Below are positions 16,835 to 25,309 of a stretch of DNA of 64,000 bases, piece by piece (positions within the stretch are counted from its first letter, which is position 1; every line of letters begins with the position of its first letter). Position numbers and translations under genes: made by a program. Below the pieces are notes generated by a model, which did not search any database, was not told the origin of the DNA, and saw only the letters and a list, made by a program, of their open reading frames with translations. The DNA is taken from assembly GCA_030145195.1 (NCBI GenBank), contig JAQYVY010000013.1, positions 1 through 64,000 on the forward strand, in the 5' to 3' direction. The DNA comes from Desulfuromonadales bacterium (GTDB taxonomy: Bacteria > Desulfobacterota > Desulfuromonadia > Desulfuromonadales > BM103).

Positions 16835-17332
16835 CTATAGTTGCCCCATAATCTCACTGCCGTCGGCAAATAATTCGTAATGGGTCAACAGCAGATTTTT
16901 GTGAACAAGGTTCTCTCTCAAGTGCTCTAACAATCCCTTATCATCATCAATAACCCTGACCTGAGTTGCCTGGCTCAATTGAATCGACTGGCCTATAACA
17001 GAAGCCTTCCAGGCATAATAATCAGCCATGACATACGCATGTTCTTCGGGGTAGTAGAAGATGTTATCGATGTTGAGAGAATGTTCTAGAATGACTTTTT
17101 CTGTGATCTCGGAGAGGTAAGATTTCTTTCGGCCGGTAATGATATTTACCGTCGCGCCATCTGCTTGGTACTCGGACATAATCGTCTTGATTGTATCGCT
17201 AGTGATGGGGTTCTCGTTGTAGGCTTTGGTGACCAGGGCAGTAAAATCTTGTGAGGAAATGTTTGAGGTATTGATGTTGTGCATTTCGTTGCAGACTATG
17301 ACTCCGTCGAAATCGCACCATAGTTCTTTCAT
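16835..17332 (-). CDS. HAD-superfamily hydrolase-like protein
   Basis: The 165-residue protein carries the HAD motifs: I, CDFDGV (Asp7 nucleophile, Asp9); II, IITGRKKSY (Thr after a hydrophobic strand); III, a Lys in YAWKASVI; IV, VIDDDKG. It lacks a large cap, so it may act on macromolecular or phosphate-ester substrates. The substrate is unknown. It lies 31 bases downstream of the SUKH/TPR gene in the same run. Confidence 0.7.
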   Translation of the reverse strand: MKELWCDFDGVIVCNEMHNINTSNISSQDFTALVTKAYNENPITSDTIKTIMSEYQADGATVNIITGRKKSYLSEITEKVILEHSLNIDNIFYYPEEHAYVMADYYAWKASVIGQSIQLSQATQVRVIDDDKGLLEHLRENLVHKNLLLTHYELFADGSEIMGQL

Positions 17333-17363: not shown

Positions 17364-18845
17364 TCATTCTGAACCGAACATCTCCTCACGCATTTCCAAC
17401 TCTTTTTTTTGACATCGCTGCGCTTCCTCTTCATTACCAATCTTTTCCCATGCCCTTGCACAATCTCCCCAATAGCCAGGATGATCAATAAGCGGTTCCG
17501 CTTTGGTCAGACATCGAGTTGCGGCATCGATGTCTGAAAACTTCTCAAACCACATAGCTGCTGCCCAAGCTAGAGCACTAATATCGTTATCCACTTCGAT
17601 CAGACCCTCGCATTGGATAAGGCATCTTTTGGCATTTTCCATCTCTCCAGTTTTGTACCAGCTATCGGCGATGTAGTAATAGTCATCCACCGACTTAGAC
17701 ACCGCTTCAGCGTTCTTAAGGCAACGGCAAGCCTCGTCCTTCATGCTTAACTCTTCATTCCAGAAATCAGCACAACGATCCCAATCATCGCGATCCACCC
17801 CCATAGACTCAGACATTCTCAAACAGCGAATCGCTTCATCTTTTTGCTTCCTCACATGCAACCAATTCTCAGCGCATTTAAGCCAATCATAGGCTCGATC
17901 TGCTTGCTTTTCAGCCAAAGCTGGGTTAAGACGACACAGTCCCTTTTCCGCCAACTCCCTGACTTCACGTCGTTCATGCTTATGCAGCTTTTCCAGACGT
18001 GCTTTATGGTCCGATGAAACTTTATCCCTAAAGAACAAATCGCTACCAGTTAAAGAAGAGTACCCCTTGTTGATTTGATCCTCTATTTGCGCGAGCGCTT
18101 TTGAAAGCTCATCGTTTCCCCTGAGAAGATCTTTAACAAAGGTCCTCAATCTTGGAATCAGACGCCGTTTTTGATGAGCTTCTTCCATATCCATAAAAAA
18201 GTTCATCATGGAAATTGCCGTAGCCGCTTGAGAGTTTTTACTCTCTCCACAACCATCCGCCTCTTTCCGATCAAAATCAGCAACACGTTGCAAAGCAGCA
18301 GACAGGTTCGCATCTATTTCTAAAAAGTTTTCTTGCTTCAACAAATCCAAAGAGCCGCGTTGTTCTGGTGACAGATCACACTCGCTGAGCAGTTCGGACA
18401 CCTCGACGATGCACTTGATAAGATACATTGGCCACGATGATGCAATGACCTCCTTATCCTCTTTGGAAAGCACAACAGGTGTCAATCCATCCGTGTCGAC
18501 GGCACCTGGTTCAATATCTACGCTGCCAGAATCCCAGCTACTTACATAAACTCCACTCCTCTCACCCAAATAACCATACAGGTGAAAAGTTTCTTGGAGT
18601 TCATACGGGGAAACAATTCGTAGGCTTCCTTCAAGAAATTCAATTCTCCCGGAGCCAAAGTTACTTAACCAGTATCTGAAATCATCCGGGTAGTTAATGT
18701 CGAGCAACCCTTCAAATTCTGAGATCTGTTGCTCGTCCATAGGAACAAGCTTCATATAGTTGATAAGAGGCTTGGCCTTTTCAATGTAATCCCAAGCAAG
18801 TTGTGTTTGACATTTCAGTTCTTCAGAAAATACTTGTTTAGCCAT
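17364..18845 (-). CDS. SUKH (SMI1/KNR4) domain plus TPR-like repeats
   Basis: This about 493-residue protein has an N-terminal SUKH-type domain (EQQISEFEGLLDINYPDDFR, then YWLSNFGSGRIEF; about 40-160), a charged helical middle (190-310) and at least four C-terminal repeats of about 33-35 residues with consensus W-x2-CA-x2-W-x6-(D/E)-EA-RCL-x2-AE (about 325-480). SUKH proteins are frequent immunity or effector-binding proteins; the repeats should form a TPR-like scaffold. ATG 18845 has GGGGAA upstream and is preferred to ATG 18857. Its place in the WYL/DnaB-like run suggests a sensor or scaffold role, which is inference. Confidence 0.75.
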   Translation of the reverse strand: MAKQVFSEELKCQTQLAWDYIEKAKPLINYMKLVPMDEQQISEFEGLLDINYPDDFRYWLSNFGSGRIEFLEGSLRIVSPYELQETFHLYGYLGERSGVYVSSWDSGSVDIEPGAVDTDGLTPVVLSKEDKEVIASSWPMYLIKCIVEVSELLSECDLSPEQRGSLDLLKQENFLEIDANLSAALQRVADFDRKEADGCGESKNSQAATAISMMNFFMDMEEAHQKRRLIPRLRTFVKDLLRGNDELSKALAQIEDQINKGYSSLTGSDLFFRDKVSSDHKARLEKLHKHERREVRELAEKGLCRLNPALAEKQADRAYDWLKCAENWLHVRKQKDEAIRCLRMSESMGVDRDDWDRCADFWNEELSMKDEACRCLKNAEAVSKSVDDYYYIADSWYKTGEMENAKRCLIQCEGLIEVDNDISALAWAAAMWFEKFSDIDAATRCLTKAEPLIDHPGYWGDCARAWEKIGNEEEAQRCQKKELEMREEMFGSE

Positions 18846-18895
18846 TGTTTTCCCCATAGTTGGCAGATAACCAATTCACGCTTGCAATATTCCCG

Positions 18896-19288
18896 CTAGC
18901 CCCAATCGTCTTCATCGAAAAGAGCAGAAAGGTCTTCTGATCTTGTGGTGTAGTGGGAGTCTGTTTTCCACTTCACCTCGCACCCGTCGAGTTCAAAAAA
19001 AGCGATGATCCTCTCTTTGTTTTCCGTGCTGAACAGTGTTGAGTCCATGTAGACAATTGCGTGCTGGTCGTTCTTATTCCAAAGCACCCGACCGCGCGGG
19101 ATACTGTAATACTCTTGGCCGCGCAACTCAGGGAAGTCAGCCAGCAGAGTTCGCTCTTCGTCCCAAACGTCGGTGTGATTTTTGGGACTGTCTATCAGGC
19201 CTGGATAAGACTCTTCCCCTGCCGAAACAGGGGAAGCATGGCCGATGACTTTTTCTTTGTAGAACCAGAAGATTCCGATTTTAGGCAT
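18896..19288 (-). CDS. conserved-looking 130-aa hypothetical protein
   Basis: The protein starts MPKIGIFWFYKEKVIGHASP and has RGQEYYSIPRGRVLWNK and HAIVYMDSTL, a pattern I remember from small unnamed proteins in many proteobacteria, without known function. It follows the PD-(D/E)XK-like gene by 14 bases and precedes the SUKH gene. Soluble, no metal motif. Confidence 0.75.
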   Translation of the reverse strand: MPKIGIFWFYKEKVIGHASPVSAGEESYPGLIDSPKNHTDVWDEERTLLADFPELRGQEYYSIPRGRVLWNKNDQHAIVYMDSTLFSTENKERIIAFFELDGCEVKWKTDSHYTTRSEDLSALFDEDDWG

Positions 19289-19302: not shown

Positions 19303-20298
19303 CTAGAGCTTTTTGCCCTGGCCACCTATCTGCTCAGCGAAAGTATCCTTGAAGCTTTTCAAATCATACATGCACTTGTCGTAGAGCGAATATCCCGTAA
19401 AGTTAGCCACGGCAATTTTGAGTTCGGCATTTTTCATGGGTAGTAACCCATCGGCCTCCATCTGAGTTAATATCTTTAGGAGCAGTGGGCTATTAGGGCT
19501 ATGAGCAGCAAGGAGCAAAATAAATTCTGGTTTTTCATCCGAAAGCGCCTCAATCTCATTATCATTATGAATTTCATTTTCCTTGGTCCCTTGCAGGCTT
19601 CTGATGATGCCAAGTTCACGTTTTTGCTTAAAAACGCCCTTCATTTCTTTTATAAAACTCGCTTTATTGTCAGAACCACCCAACAAATCTTCGACATCTT
19701 TTACATGCTGAACAAGACCGGAGGGGTCACCGAGGCTTTTGTCGCCAAACTTCATCTCGATTAAAGCGAGCCTGACCCGCTTCCCAGGAGAGGACCTATG
19801 TTTGGTTTGCCATTTAAAAGCGACCATATCGCAACGACCAACGTTGGCGTATTCAATGTCAGCAATGAAGTAATCTGATCTGGTAGCCACATCCATGGCT
19901 GCATTATTGTTCTCGCGAACCACGTGTTGTTGATACTCTCTCTCCAGCTTTTCACTTTCCCCGCGATGTTCATCAATAGACTGCTTGATAAAGGGGATTG
20001 CATCAAGCCACAGAGAAACATCATCTGAAGTATTCAATTTTGAAGGTAGTTTCTTTAACCCTTCTTCGTAACGATTATTCTTACAATAGTTGGTATCAAA
20101 CGAAGCCGCATAACTGCCGTTCTTCTGTTCAACAACTAACACCCTGCCGCCCCGATAATAGATATGGACCTCGTTGGCACGAATATGAAAATCCAGGGTC
20201 ATGTCACGCTTAACCATTTGGATAATCCCTTCAAGCATGCCACCGTTACTCAAAGCACCCATAAAAGCGTTGTTAAGAGTTCTCAGTTTTTTTAACAT
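19303..20298 (-). CDS. PD-(D/E)XK nuclease-like protein
   Basis: The 331-residue protein has a candidate PD-(D/E)XK core: an acidic residue in strand GRCDMVAFKW (Asp157) followed by LALIEMKFGD (Glu181-x-Lys183), with IADIEY just before. The N-terminal part (1-130) contains a strand-rich region and a charged helix. Recall of the family is lacking, so nuclease activity is inferred from these residues only. ATG 20298 is selected over the frame start at 20346 because GGAGGTG lies just upstream. It lies 61 bases below the DnaB-like gene. Confidence 0.65.
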   Translation of the reverse strand: MLKKLRTLNNAFMGALSNGGMLEGIIQMVKRDMTLDFHIRANEVHIYYRGGRVLVVEQKNGSYAASFDTNYCKNNRYEEGLKKLPSKLNTSDDVSLWLDAIPFIKQSIDEHRGESEKLEREYQQHVVRENNNAAMDVATRSDYFIADIEYANVGRCDMVAFKWQTKHRSSPGKRVRLALIEMKFGDKSLGDPSGLVQHVKDVEDLLGGSDNKASFIKEMKGVFKQKRELGIIRSLQGTKENEIHNDNEIEALSDEKPEFILLLAAHSPNSPLLLKILTQMEADGLLPMKNAELKIAVANFTGYSLYDKCMYDLKSFKDTFAEQIGGQGKKL

Positions 20299-20359: not shown

Positions 20360-21265
20360 TCAGCAGAACAGCCAGCCGTTGATTAAAGTTGAAGCTAAGT
20401 GTACGCATCCAGCACAATTTTTGCGACTTTTTTCAATGATTACACTCAATATGCAGTTGTCAGGCGAAGGGCCACCACTTCTCTCAGGCATAACATTCCG
20501 ATGAAAAAACATGACGGTATCAGCATATTTGTCGATCGAGGAAGTTTCGGGAACACTCATCAAATCAGCCAGAATCGGCATTTGCCCAGTATAGTGAGTC
20601 TGACCGCCACGGCACTCCGGGTAGAGCAGAGAGTTAAGTATCAATGGGACGTTTCCGGATCGGGCAATATCTGCCAATTCAGAGAGAATCGCATCGATCT
20701 CGTCCTTTCTGGTAGCAGCGCCCCCCCACCCCTGGATGAGTTGTAAATAGTCAACAATAACCAAACCAGGCAGCACTCCATATTCTCCAACTAGACATTC
20801 ATCCAAGTGGCGGCGGATGTCATGTGCGGTAAGTCCATTTGAGTCGTTGATATAGAGAGGTATCTCTTGGAAGTTCTTCTGCACTGCCTGAACCTTTTCT
20901 TCGTCTTCCTTTCTCAAGTGTCCAGTTGCCAAACGGGATCTATCAACCTGCGCTATTTTGGCTAACAGCCTTTCGGCCAACTTCCAGCGCTTTCGGCCCA
21001 AGCTGAAATAAGCCACCGGAACCTTCTGCTTGCTGGCAACATCCCAAGCCAGACATTCTAGAAAATCGTCTTGTCCCATATGGGGGAAACCGGAGACGAT
21101 TACCAACTCCCCTGGATGGAAACCTCCCGTGAAATCATCCAAGGTTTTCAGCCCAGTCTTGATGCCGGTAACCTCACCCAACTTTATAGAGGGGGTATCC
21201 ATATACTGTTGAACAATGGCCCCAATTTTCAGGAAAGGATATTGCTGGTCATGTTGGTCAATCAT
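20360..21265 (-). CDS. DnaB-like RecA-fold protein with degenerate ATPase site
   Basis: The 301-residue protein aligns by eye with the C-terminal motor domain of replicative helicase DnaB: IKTGLKTLDDFTGGFHPGEL, LVIVDYLQLIQ (Walker B), DKYADTVMFFHR and IEKSRKN (arginine-finger region). Key residues are lost: Walker A reads FPHMGQDDF instead of PSMGKTTF, so the Lys and Thr are gone; the FSLEMS catalytic Glu is Gly (FSLGRK); the motif-3 Gln is missing (LILNSLLY). The DnaB N-terminal domain is absent. It is probably a non-hydrolysing partner or decoy of DnaB. It lies in the WYL-controlled run. Confidence 0.8.
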   Translation of the reverse strand: MIDQHDQQYPFLKIGAIVQQYMDTPSIKLGEVTGIKTGLKTLDDFTGGFHPGELVIVSGFPHMGQDDFLECLAWDVASKQKVPVAYFSLGRKRWKLAERLLAKIAQVDRSRLATGHLRKEDEEKVQAVQKNFQEIPLYINDSNGLTAHDIRRHLDECLVGEYGVLPGLVIVDYLQLIQGWGGAATRKDEIDAILSELADIARSGNVPLILNSLLYPECRGGQTHYTGQMPILADLMSVPETSSIDKYADTVMFFHRNVMPERSGGPSPDNCILSVIIEKSRKNCAGCVHLASTLINGWLFC

Positions 21266-21350: not shown

Positions 21351-21695
21351 TCAATCAACCTCAACAATCATAGGCTTACTCCATTTTGAGGTTATTCGCT
21401 TTGCGGGGGCAGGAAGCTCATTGCCCAGAGACTTCTGGTACTCGAACCAGATTCGCTCTGTTGCAACATCAATGCGATCCTCTGGCATATATGACGGATT
21501 ACCAAACCAATGATTAAAGACCTCGACAATGACCTGCCTGATATCATCGGCTGTTTTGCACTCGCCTAGACGACCAGTGATATCCTTTGCTTCAGGCTCA
21601 TATTCATCCTCTGGAGCATTAAAACCTGCATCAGTTGATTGAGAGACGATACCGACTAAATCGCACAAGAAGAGTATCTTGGTGATTTCATTCAT
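21351..21695 (-). CDS. DUF1871-like small protein
   Basis: This 114-residue protein has the segment YEPEAKDITGRLGECKTADD, then IRQVIVEVFNHWFG, a Y-x-x-E-x4-I...I-x3-F pattern reminiscent of DUF1871 proteins (unknown function, often beside toxin/immunity genes). The match is loose. It lies 63 bases after the metallo-beta-lactamase gene and 85 before the DnaB-like gene. Confidence 0.6.
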   Translation of the reverse strand: MNEITKILFLCDLVGIVSQSTDAGFNAPEDEYEPEAKDITGRLGECKTADDIRQVIVEVFNHWFGNPSYMPEDRIDVATERIWFEYQKSLGNELPAPAKRITSKWSKPMIVEVD

Positions 21696-21758: not shown

Positions 21759-23003
21759 TTATTCCAGCACAAAAGGGCAGTCATCTTCGATAGACACAAT
21801 ATTCTCAAAATTATCTGAATAGTCTTCTGCAAACTCGGTATGAATAGGCACTAAAGCCTTTGGGCTTATGGCCTGGGCAAAAGCTTTTAGATCATCCAGA
21901 GTCGCATGACCACTGGTATGTGCATAAGTGAAAGCGACCTTGGGATCGTCCTTCAAGCCAGCAATCTCCTCTGCTCCGTAATAATCATCGTTCGAATAGT
22001 CCAGATACCCTTGCCACTGGGAGTAGATAAGGTTGATCAGGCCACTTTCCTTAAACCTGCGCATCCATTTGAAGTGAGACATCTTGGCGAAGAATAGATA
22101 GTCAGCAGGCTTAGCTTCCAACTCGTCCACGGTGACCCGGTTATGCCAAATGCGACTGACAAAGCTTTTAAAGTAGTCATCACGGTTTGCCAGCAGGGTC
22201 TGATACTGGCTGTTACTGACGTACACTTTGATTAAGGGCCAGTTCATGTCTGGGACGTTTCTAGTGACAAGTTCCATCTTTTCGAGAACCCAGGCGGTAT
22301 AGACATCAAGAACCAGTATCTTCTCCGGCCCCATGCAAGCCTTGTAGGCAGAAACCAGCCGGTCAATGTTCTGTGATGACGAGATCAGAAAAGACATATT
22401 CTGTTGATCCTGAATCAACTCGGCAATCTTATGCTCGACATGTTCTTCGCTTGGGAATTCGCTGTTGTCCCGCCGCAGCATAGTCCCCTCCATGAAGAGC
22501 AGGTCAATATCGGCTGGTGGATTTTTGATCATCCGATCGAAGAGAACATTTCTGCGACCATGGGCACGAAAATCGCCACTATAGAAGATGCGTTTACCCT
22601 CCGCCTCGATGAGAAAGGCGTAGGCGTCAACGGCGGAATGATCTACCAGGTAGGGCGTGATCATAAAATCACCCACTTGGAATTTCTGGTTTTTTGTGAA
22701 GTGCTTGAAATTGTTCCTTGGCAAATCACGCTTCAGGAAGATGCGCGTGGCATCAATTAGGGACTTGCCGAGAGCGCCAATGTAGACTGGCGTCTCGGTA
22801 TCGAGTTGTTCAATGAGACCGTAGTGGTCTTGATGAGGGTGGCTGATCAATACAGCATCAGCTTTTAACTGTGTCGGATCAAGAATCCGACTGGCTTTAC
22901 TGAGAGGTGCGCCCAGATCCAAAAGAATGTTTGTCTGGCGGGTTGCAAGTTCAATGCATGTCCCGCCGATTTCTTTACTGCCGCGATGAATCGTAATCTT
23001 CAA
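21759..23003 (-). CDS. RNase J-like metallo-beta-lactamase-fold hydrolase
   Basis: The 414-residue protein has the complete metal site: HPHQDHYG (about 55-62), VDHSAVDAYAF (His about 120), SGDFRAHG (Asp about 143), TSGHA and PIHTEFA near the C-terminus. The N-terminal EIGGTCIELATRQTNILLDLG and the late His motifs resemble RNase J and beta-CASP nucleases, but the CASP insert is atypical. A hydrolytic nuclease role is likely, not shown. It starts at TTG 23003 with TAAGGAG upstream, the stop of a 19-codon leader frame overlapping that site. Preceded by a 298-base gap with the regulon palindrome. Confidence 0.85.
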   Translation of the reverse strand: MKITIHRGSKEIGGTCIELATRQTNILLDLGAPLSKASRILDPTQLKADAVLISHPHQDHYGLIEQLDTETPVYIGALGKSLIDATRIFLKRDLPRNNFKHFTKNQKFQVGDFMITPYLVDHSAVDAYAFLIEAEGKRIFYSGDFRAHGRRNVLFDRMIKNPPADIDLLFMEGTMLRRDNSEFPSEEHVEHKIAELIQDQQNMSFLISSSQNIDRLVSAYKACMGPEKILVLDVYTAWVLEKMELVTRNVPDMNWPLIKVYVSNSQYQTLLANRDDYFKSFVSRIWHNRVTVDELEAKPADYLFFAKMSHFKWMRRFKESGLINLIYSQWQGYLDYSNDDYYGAEEIAGLKDDPKVAFTYAHTSGHATLDDLKAFAQAISPKALVPIHTEFAEDYSDNFENIVSIEDDCPFVLE

Positions 23004-23301: not shown

Positions 23302-24285
23302 CTATGAAATAGCTATGACTCTGGTTATCAAATTTTCAATGGAATCTGCAATGATTGAAGCACTGGTCTTGGTATAACCACCGGACAACAGCATGAGAAT
23401 AGGTATGTCCCGGTTTATTGCATTCAAAAAGACGATTTCATCCCTTTTGATAATGCCCGCCCGGCTGATGTTCATTGCTCCGAGCGGATCTTCCTCATAA
23501 ATATCCGTCCCAGCATTGTAGATGACAAAATCGGCCTGACAGGCATCCATCGCCTCAGGGATGACGCGTTCCAACAGTGAAAGATACTCGGCATCCTCAA
23601 TATTGGCCAAAACCGGAATAGGAATGTGGACATGTCTCTCCGCCTCCATGTCATCTGGGAAAATCTGGCAGTTATATACATCCAGAATGGAGAGATCAGG
23701 AATCGACTGCAAGGTATCTGAAACTCCGTTGCCCTGATGTGCGTCCAGGTCAATCACCAGTATTTTGATCCCAGGATTGGTGTTACGCAGTTTCATAACC
23801 GCCAGAGGAATGTCGGCAAAGAAGCAGAAACCGCTGCCGCAATCTCGCTTGGCATGATGGTACCCGCCCGAGAGGTTAATGGACCAGCCATGTTTGAGCG
23901 CCAGGTCGGCGCCCATCAAAGTGCCTGCCGTAGCGTAACGCATTGGCTCTATCAGGCAGCTTTGGAGAACGTCGCTAGCCAAAAGCCCAAGAAAAGGGAC
24001 CTCTGCAATTTGTGCCACAGTAGAAGGATTTTTTAAAGACTCCAGATAGTCTGGATGATGAATCTCCAGAAGATCCTCATCGCTGATCGCTTCCGGGTGG
24101 TGGATATCTGTATAGGCAAGCCCGAGTCTCTCCGACAGCATTTCAAATACGCGGCCATATTTCTTGGAGTCAAAGGGATGCAGCTTTTCCAAGCCCATGA
24201 AAGAGATGTTGTACTCATCCGAATAAACGATAGGGAGTTTCTCTTTTGTCTGCTTACAGGTATCCGTTGCGGTATTTTTTTTCAA
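23302..24285 (-). CDS. histone-deacetylase-fold (HDAC/AcuC superfamily) protein
   Basis: The 327-residue protein has arginase/deacetylase motifs: NLSGGYHHAKRDCGSGFCFF (tandem His and metal-site region), VIDLDAHQGNG (metal-binding DxH), YNAGTDIYEEDPLG (second metal Asp) and LSGGYTK. It resembles HDAC11-type bacterial homologues; substrates could be acetyl-lysine or other acyl amides. TTG 24285 is chosen: AAGGAG starts at the WYL stop codon (TAAGGAG), leaving a ten-base junction and giving normal N-terminal KLPIVYSDEY. The longer frame to 24453 overlaps the WYL gene. Tight coupling suggests joint function. Confidence 0.88.
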   Translation of the reverse strand: MKKNTATDTCKQTKEKLPIVYSDEYNISFMGLEKLHPFDSKKYGRVFEMLSERLGLAYTDIHHPEAISDEDLLEIHHPDYLESLKNPSTVAQIAEVPFLGLLASDVLQSCLIEPMRYATAGTLMGADLALKHGWSINLSGGYHHAKRDCGSGFCFFADIPLAVMKLRNTNPGIKILVIDLDAHQGNGVSDTLQSIPDLSILDVYNCQIFPDDMEAERHVHIPIPVLANIEDAEYLSLLERVIPEAMDACQADFVIYNAGTDIYEEDPLGAMNISRAGIIKRDEIVFLNAINRDIPILMLLSGGYTKTSASIIADSIENLITRVIAIS

Positions 24286-24295
24286 ATAGTTCTCC

Positions 24296-25309
24296 TTACG
24301 GTTTGTACATCTGACACATATTCCGACAGGCTTCAGCAACCTGTTGCCTGAGATCCTGCGGTTCCAAAACTTCAACCTTGTCTCCAAAGCCCATAACCCA
24401 CCATTGAAGTTGCGAACTGTTGCGTACCCTTGCCTCGACTTTGACCCGGCCATCGGCTTGTATCGTCACCCTCTGATCGTCGGCAAGAGGTGCTTCATCC
24501 AGATGCTCCGCGACCTCTTTATCAAAAAGCGCCTTAAATCTCACCTTCCCTTCATCTTTGGTAAATTCGAAGCCACCAGCTTCAATATAGCGGTGGAGAT
24601 CAAACCCCTCAATCGGCGTGGAATCCGCGTCTAAGCATTTCGCTTCTACGATCCTGTGGAGGGCTAATTTATAGATGCCCCTCTGATCGGCAAAGTTACA
24701 AACCAGATAGAGAGTGGCGTCGACAAAGACCACCCCAAGCGGAGTGATTGTGTACTTTTCAGGTTGTTCTGTTCCCCTCTTTCTGTAGAAAAGCTCGATT
24801 TGCTGATTCATCAACAGCCCATCGTAGACGGCTGAAAGATGTTGTGTATTGATCTTGGGCGGCCGTAAAGACAAGTGACGCGAGATCCTGGCAATCTTTT
24901 TCGGCCACCCTCCGACCCCAGCACCGTCCAGCCCTTTTAAAACTTCACGCGCTTTGCTCATGTGAGGATTCAAAAACGATAGACAGCTTTCAGGCATCAG
25001 GGCTCCCAGATGCAACTTGGCCATCATGAAGGTCAGGGCGGTAAAGGGGTCCATCCCCGGGATCTCCAGAAAACTGGCATCTTCCGCCCAACGCCAACCT
25101 TTGACCGAGGCTTCGTCGCTTACCAACGGGAAGTTCAAGCGTGACAATTCGATTAAGTCTCGCTGAATCGTCCGTAACGACACGTCAACGCCAGCCTGCC
25201 GCAAAGAGATCTGCAACTCTCGTGTGCCGATAAATCTTTTGCGTGGAATCCTCTGCAAAAGCAACCAATGTCTCCAAACTGTTTCATGACTTTTTGCGCT
25301 GCCCATCAT
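24296..25309 (-). CDS. WYL-domain transcriptional regulator
   Basis: The 337-residue protein has an N-terminal winged helix (ELQISLRQAGVDVSLRTIQR, DLIELSRLNFPL) and a C-terminal WYL domain (IELFYRKRGTEQPEKYTITP, then LGVVFVDATLYLVCN and YKLALHRI), followed by a WCX-like end. WYL regulators such as BrxR and CapW repress phage-defence operons and may respond to nucleic acid. The gene starts with GGAGG four to seven bases upstream. Palindromes upstream (25350-25364, 25405-25419) suggest autoregulation. It is the first gene of the deacetylase operon. Confidence 0.9.
   Translation of the reverse strand: MMGSAKSHETVWRHWLLLQRIPRKRFIGTRELQISLRQAGVDVSLRTIQRDLIELSRLNFPLVSDEASVKGWRWAEDASFLEIPGMDPFTALTFMMAKLHLGALMPESCLSFLNPHMSKAREVLKGLDGAGVGGWPKKIARISRHLSLRPPKINTQHLSAVYDGLLMNQQIELFYRKRGTEQPEKYTITPLGVVFVDATLYLVCNFADQRGIYKLALHRIVEAKCLDADSTPIEGFDLHRYIEAGGFEFTKDEGKVRFKALFDKEVAEHLDEAPLADDQRVTIQADGRVKVEARVRNSSQLQWWVMGFGDKVEVLEPQDLRQQVAEACRNMCQMYKP

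Follow-up and report, generated by a model that had tools for sequence, protein, structure and literature searches.

A stand-alone DnaB C-terminal domain with a dead ATPase site beside a metallo-beta-lactamase and nuclease gene pair in a Desulfuromonadales bacterium

The window, which is the whole 64,000-nucleotide stretch of DNA that was analysed, contains a lower-GC stretch at 14.0-25.3 kb, where GC content is 37-50% per gene compared with 51-56% in the flanking genes. On the minus strand, this stretch encodes a WYL-domain regulator (24296..25309; Pfam WYL 1.3e-10, WCX 1.1e-19), an RNase-J-like beta-CASP metallo-beta-lactamase (MBL) of 414 aa (21759..23003), a 114-aa ORF without a Pfam, NCBIfam or PADLOC family (21351..21695), the DnaB-like ORF under study, here called DL (20360..21265), a PD-(D/E)xK-like nuclease (19303..20298; 331 aa from an ATG with a strong ribosome-binding site), the small protein o130 next to the nuclease (18896..19288) and a SUKH/TPR-like protein of 497 aa (17364..18857), whose SUKH-1 match is weak (0.001, below the cut-off) and which shares 37% identity with a gene of locus L034. 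DL and the adjoining 114-aa ORF sit between the MBL gene and the nuclease gene. A histone-deacetylase-family protein (23302-24453, Pfam 3.5e-51) is encoded between the WYL regulator and the MBL gene. At the other end lies a HAD-type protein (16835-17332) that weakly resembles phage polynucleotide kinase (PHROG 7e-11) and RNA-repair HAD domains, and RNA-repair genes (RlaP) were also seen near the MBL-nuclease module elsewhere. None of the 10 cluster proteins matched a PADLOC system model, and no repeats marking an inserted cassette were found around DL. DL lies in an island of the bacterial chromosome and not in a phage: the genes around it are bacterial ones of the island type, and searches of viral-contig, phage and plasmid collections did not recover the nuclease of the module, so that a phage origin was rejected. 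An earlier note on this DNA had named host and phage DnaB alike as possible targets of DL; a phage setting is not supported.

DL is read from 21265 to 20360 and comprises 301 stop-free codons with GC by codon position of the coding type; no clear strong ribosome-binding site was found upstream. Pfam DnaB_C matched residues 34-291 (2e-44), DnaB of known structure was matched by sequence at 1e-29, and the AlphaFold model was a DnaB RecA domain (pLDDT 88.4) whose best PDB fold matches were DnaB entries (E 2e-24). These results bear out the earlier description of a DnaB C-terminal-like protein with an intact reading frame. DL scored 166 bits with TIGR00665, the equivalog model of full-length DnaB, which is below the cut-off of 385. 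Both the ORF and the alignment start in the DnaB linker helix region, and the N-terminal collar domain is absent; the linker helix (residues 14-22; 21200..21226, minus strand) is helix H14-22 in the model and aligns with the linker region of DnaB. DL is a stand-alone linker helix and RecA domain whose cis ATPase site is dead. The host's own DnaB is encoded elsewhere in the genome as an open frame of 476 aa (G000:C37) with an intact Walker A, and shares only about 33% identity with DL.

For comparison of individual residues, we used 41 other DnaB relatives (39 viral proteins, one host DnaB and the stand-alone domain of locus L051) and regarded a position as family-conserved when it was at least 85% conserved among them, which gave 50 positions. 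DL kept 30 of these and lost 20. Its Walker A region reads GFPHMGQDDF, in which GQD replaces GK[T/S] (degenerate motif PHMGQDDF, residues 61-68; 21062..21085, minus strand): K65 is replaced by Gln and T/S66 by Asp, although Lys and Thr or Ser, respectively, were present in 41/41 relatives. The catalytic Glu, which follows the second strand and was also found in 41/41 relatives, is Gly (E90G; 20996..20998, minus strand), and the sensor Gln of the SQL motif, present in 40/41, is Leu (Q213L; 20627..20629, minus strand). By the same comparison, the Walker B motif VIVDYLQL is kept with Asp172 (20738..20761, minus strand), as are the fold residues and the Arg-finger region K279-S-R281 (20423..20431, minus strand), a K-x-R motif made up of the piston Lys and the Arg finger, both present in 41/41 relatives. 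The earlier note had named the altered Walker A, the Glu-to-Gly change, the missing motif-3 Gln and the remaining Walker B and Arg-finger region, and each of these observations was confirmed. Further losses are R216, E219, R221, R236, S241, G242 and E245, with R236M and G242S among the substitutions, at positions that we assign, from DnaB structures in general, to the loops in contact with ssDNA or to their vicinity. Alignment with DnaB and structure prediction, two of the checks proposed at that time, recovered the DnaB RecA fold and added two features to the description, namely the missing N-terminal domain and the loss of ssDNA-loop residues R236, S241 and G242. In DL the engine is gone and a surface is left, made up of the linker helix, the fold and the trans-acting K-x-R.

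Walker A was GK[T/S] wherever the alignment covered the site in 80 viral relatives, and also in every other DnaB relative examined. Only the stand-alone DnaB C-domain of L051, with 17/50 family-conserved positions lost, was comparably degenerate, the next highest number among the comparison proteins being 8. No ortholog of DL was found in the genomes of the order, in 277 genomes of the class or in 395 of the phylum, and neither pattern scans nor the order, class and phylum searches gave an ortholog with the same dead motif; many related genomes are drafts or metagenome bins, and several clusters are truncated by contig ends. Since DL is a singleton, conservation of its altered motifs cannot be shown, and of the "conserved but inactive" helicase mimic proposed earlier, the loss of ATP-site residues stands and the conservation is unsupported. 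In the DnaB tree, DL occupied the longest branch, apart from the stand-alone DnaB C-domains of Geobacterales (L034 and L115-L118), with weak support of 0.19. The stand-alone C-domains of comparable clusters (L034, L051, L236 and L237) carry an intact Walker A (GKS). According to the earlier note, such homologues would mean that this copy is just decaying, but they share only 25-29% identity with DL (26% for L051) and none of them is its ortholog, so their presence does not decide the question. Judged by these sequences, a dead Walker A is not a rule of the stand-alone group, as the related genes are intact. A small family without a Pfam match always adjoins the Geobacterales stand-alone domains (L238 8799-9329, L239 5988-6377 and L034 12239-12610). 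The 114-aa ORF of the window was considered as a counterpart of the 123-aa companion gene of these domains and rejected, as its BLAST match was weak and its profile score was no better than those of shuffled sequences.

The two genes that enclose DL form a recurrent pair. The MBL matched Pfam MBL families and RMMBL as well as RNase J structures (5e-13). In the nuclease, E119, D157 and E181-x-K183 were invariant across 57 homologues, which is the PD-(D/E)xK signature, and its model had a pLDDT of 89.7, with no PDB match at E <= 0.001 in the fold search. An MBL homologue was present in 63 of the 78 nuclease loci, in many phyla and mostly adjacent, and in two relatives of the same class the MBL and nuclease genes directly adjoin each other. 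The pair (window; L030-L113) is patchily distributed across many phyla and appears to be uncharacterised; the titles and abstracts listed by literature searches described neither such an MBL-nuclease system nor dead DnaB paralogues. Homologues of the WYL regulator were found in the L034, L051 and L075 clusters.

Derivatives of replisome proteins recur beside this widespread bacterial module. Stand-alone DnaB C-domains accompany both MBL and nuclease genes in L034 and L051, the MBL gene in L237 (no nuclease was seen on its short contig) and a WYL gene in L236; in L238 and L239 they occur with the 123-aa companion gene, in islands without an MBL gene. L056 has a DnaE ORF reduced to the fingers and a PHP ORF beside the module, and the o130 profile matched L056 residues 329-432 (E 1.2e-10), showing that the o130 domain is fused there to the DnaE PHP piece. 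The DnaE beside the module in L105 has its catalytic Asp region replaced, the DnaE paralogue of L237 is frameshifted and has PDIWVDF in place of PDFDVDF, and the DnaE derivatives of L067, L082 and L083 keep the motif, as PDIDLNF. In L075, a DnaQ-like gene whose product is 50% identical to E. coli DnaQ lies between the MBL and nuclease genes. Five independent DnaB/DnaE-type genes were counted among 197 directon neighbours, where an assumed genome-wide rate predicts about 0.18 (P ~1e-6), and the comparison with other ORFs in the same loci gave P 0.003-0.013; the test was post hoc, as the pattern had been noticed first, and the counts are small. Most of the 78 nuclease loci had no replisome-like neighbour. 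A DnaB near the module in L075 was left out of the count, because it is the dnaB of the host itself, located at rplI, and so was the DnaE of L068, which is possibly the host's own.

In L105 (2004-15626; Butyrivibrio sp. VCB2006), the DnaE piece without the catalytic Asp region lies by the MBL and nuclease genes together with an FtsH-like AAA+M41 protein and a ParB_N and SMC-hinge fusion, and a short DnaX-like gene and an FtsZ-like gene are found further off. In the Clostridia, L067 (12493-15957), L082 and L083 have PolC/DnaE-like genes after the module with degenerate or missing PHP metal residues, and the L067 gene is fused to a domain that L082 and L083 encode separately. A full-length MreB gene in L064 (4265-5302) starts 18 bases after the nuclease match and is followed by the beginning of a DnaE-like sequence at the contig end.

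The P-loop codons GGA CAA GAC GAT TTT yield GKT in the +1 frame when one C is dropped. By background expectation, 1.9% of Gly codons would be followed by a hidden KT or KS, and this is the sole such site among the 25 Gly codons of DL, which suggests that a GKT ancestor underwent two one-base indels that compensated each other. An indel pair at the P-loop cannot explain the other lost motifs. The same trace might come from two compensating base errors in the sequence, in which case DL would be an active DnaB-C ATPase, but both errors would have to fall within about 7 bases and E90G, Q213L, R236M and G242S would be left unexplained, which makes a sequencing artefact highly improbable. The main rival to the reading preferred below is that DL is decaying cargo: a stand-alone DnaB-C ATPase, active in the past, would have become non-functional recently, and only its open frame would persist in the island. 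The hidden GKT agrees with this, as do the lack of orthologs, the longest branch of the tree, the existence of relatives with an intact Walker A and the frameshifted DnaE paralogue in the related L237 cluster. Against it, the 301 codons are free of stops at strong divergence: in simulated neutral decay to 57% protein identity only 0.7% of the runs retained a stop-free frame, and in decay to 47% or less none of 300 runs did. The retained fold residues, Walker B and Arg finger also speak against decay. Because simulated decay so rarely left a stop-free frame and GC by codon position is of the coding type, constraint at the protein level probably held while most of the divergence of DL took place. 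A recent loss of function is still compatible with these data, and the "just decaying" alternative is weakened by the simulations; we consider it rather unlikely.

Loss of the cis site together with retention of the trans-acting K-x-R agrees, as far as the residues tell, with DL being able to partner an active subunit of DnaB. In line with the proposal of the earlier note that it inserts into or blocks DnaB hexamers, DL might then act as a poison subunit that docks into host or phage DnaB hexamers by its linker helix and completes the neighbour's site with its Arg finger, without binding ATP or ssDNA itself, so that the ring would stall with a toxic or antiviral outcome depending on expression. 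Subunits that combine a dead P-loop with a working Arg finger occur in other oligomeric ATPases, such as the delta-prime subunit of the clamp loader. A mixed ring is uncertain, however, given the low identity between DL and the DnaB of its host; DL also lacks the N-terminal collar, and the operon context suggests a larger module over a lone inhibitor. This role is improbable in our judgement.

We tentatively prefer the reading that DL mimics the replicative helicase for interaction only, possibly as a bait or adapter within a module of the conflict type that is as yet undescribed. DL would be unable to unwind DNA and may contact DnaB-type rings or loaders, of the host or of an invader, through the retained linker-helix and Arg-finger surfaces. 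Such contact might bring the nucleases of the module to replicating foreign DNA or, alternatively, sense a phage acting on the replisome, and the module would presumably serve in defence against phages. The dead cis site with its trans residues kept, the frame intact despite divergence and the confident DnaB fold argue for the mimic, together with the conserved MBL and nuclease pair, the recurrent DnaB-C and DnaE/DnaQ derivatives, the o130-PHP fusion and the neighbour enrichment. Its singleton state, the intact Walker A of its stand-alone relatives, the post hoc nature of the enrichment and the lack of a clear strong ribosome-binding site argue against it. On a broader and clearly more doubtful reading, the window would contain an example of a widespread but as yet undescribed immune module of bacteria (WYL regulator, beta-CASP MBL and PD-(D/E)xK-like nuclease) in which exchangeable and often catalytically crippled replisome copies (DnaB C-domain, DnaE fingers or PHP, DnaQ) serve as baits, drawing in those phage factors that attack the replisome or hijack it. 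If the replisome fragments are baits or poisons beside the nuclease pair, they would represent a new bacterial way to detect or stop replication-hijacking phages, and the pair is of interest even if DL itself is decaying.

Compared with known systems, DL shares the RecA fold, linker helix, Walker B Asp and K-x-R with the DnaB helicase (TIGR00665, Pfam DnaB_C; PDB 4ESV and 2R6A), whereas the N-terminal domain, Walker A, catalytic Glu, sensor Gln and ssDNA-loop residues of the latter are missing. The Geobacterales domains likewise consist of linker helix and RecA domain only and have partly the same neighbours (MBL, WYL and nuclease), but differ in their intact Walker A and 123-aa companion gene. 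The L051 domain, from Nitrospinales, resembles DL in its kind of operon (WYL, nuclease, MBL and o130), its strong degeneracy and the loss of the sensor Gln, but has kept both Walker A and the catalytic Glu. The MBL of the window shares the MBL and RMMBL domains with RNase J and other beta-CASP ribonucleases, EF2904 and RNase J being its closest solved relatives; unlike RNase J, it is 414 aa long, scores far below the RNase J model cut-offs, has no PADLOC match and is paired with a PD-(D/E)xK-like gene.
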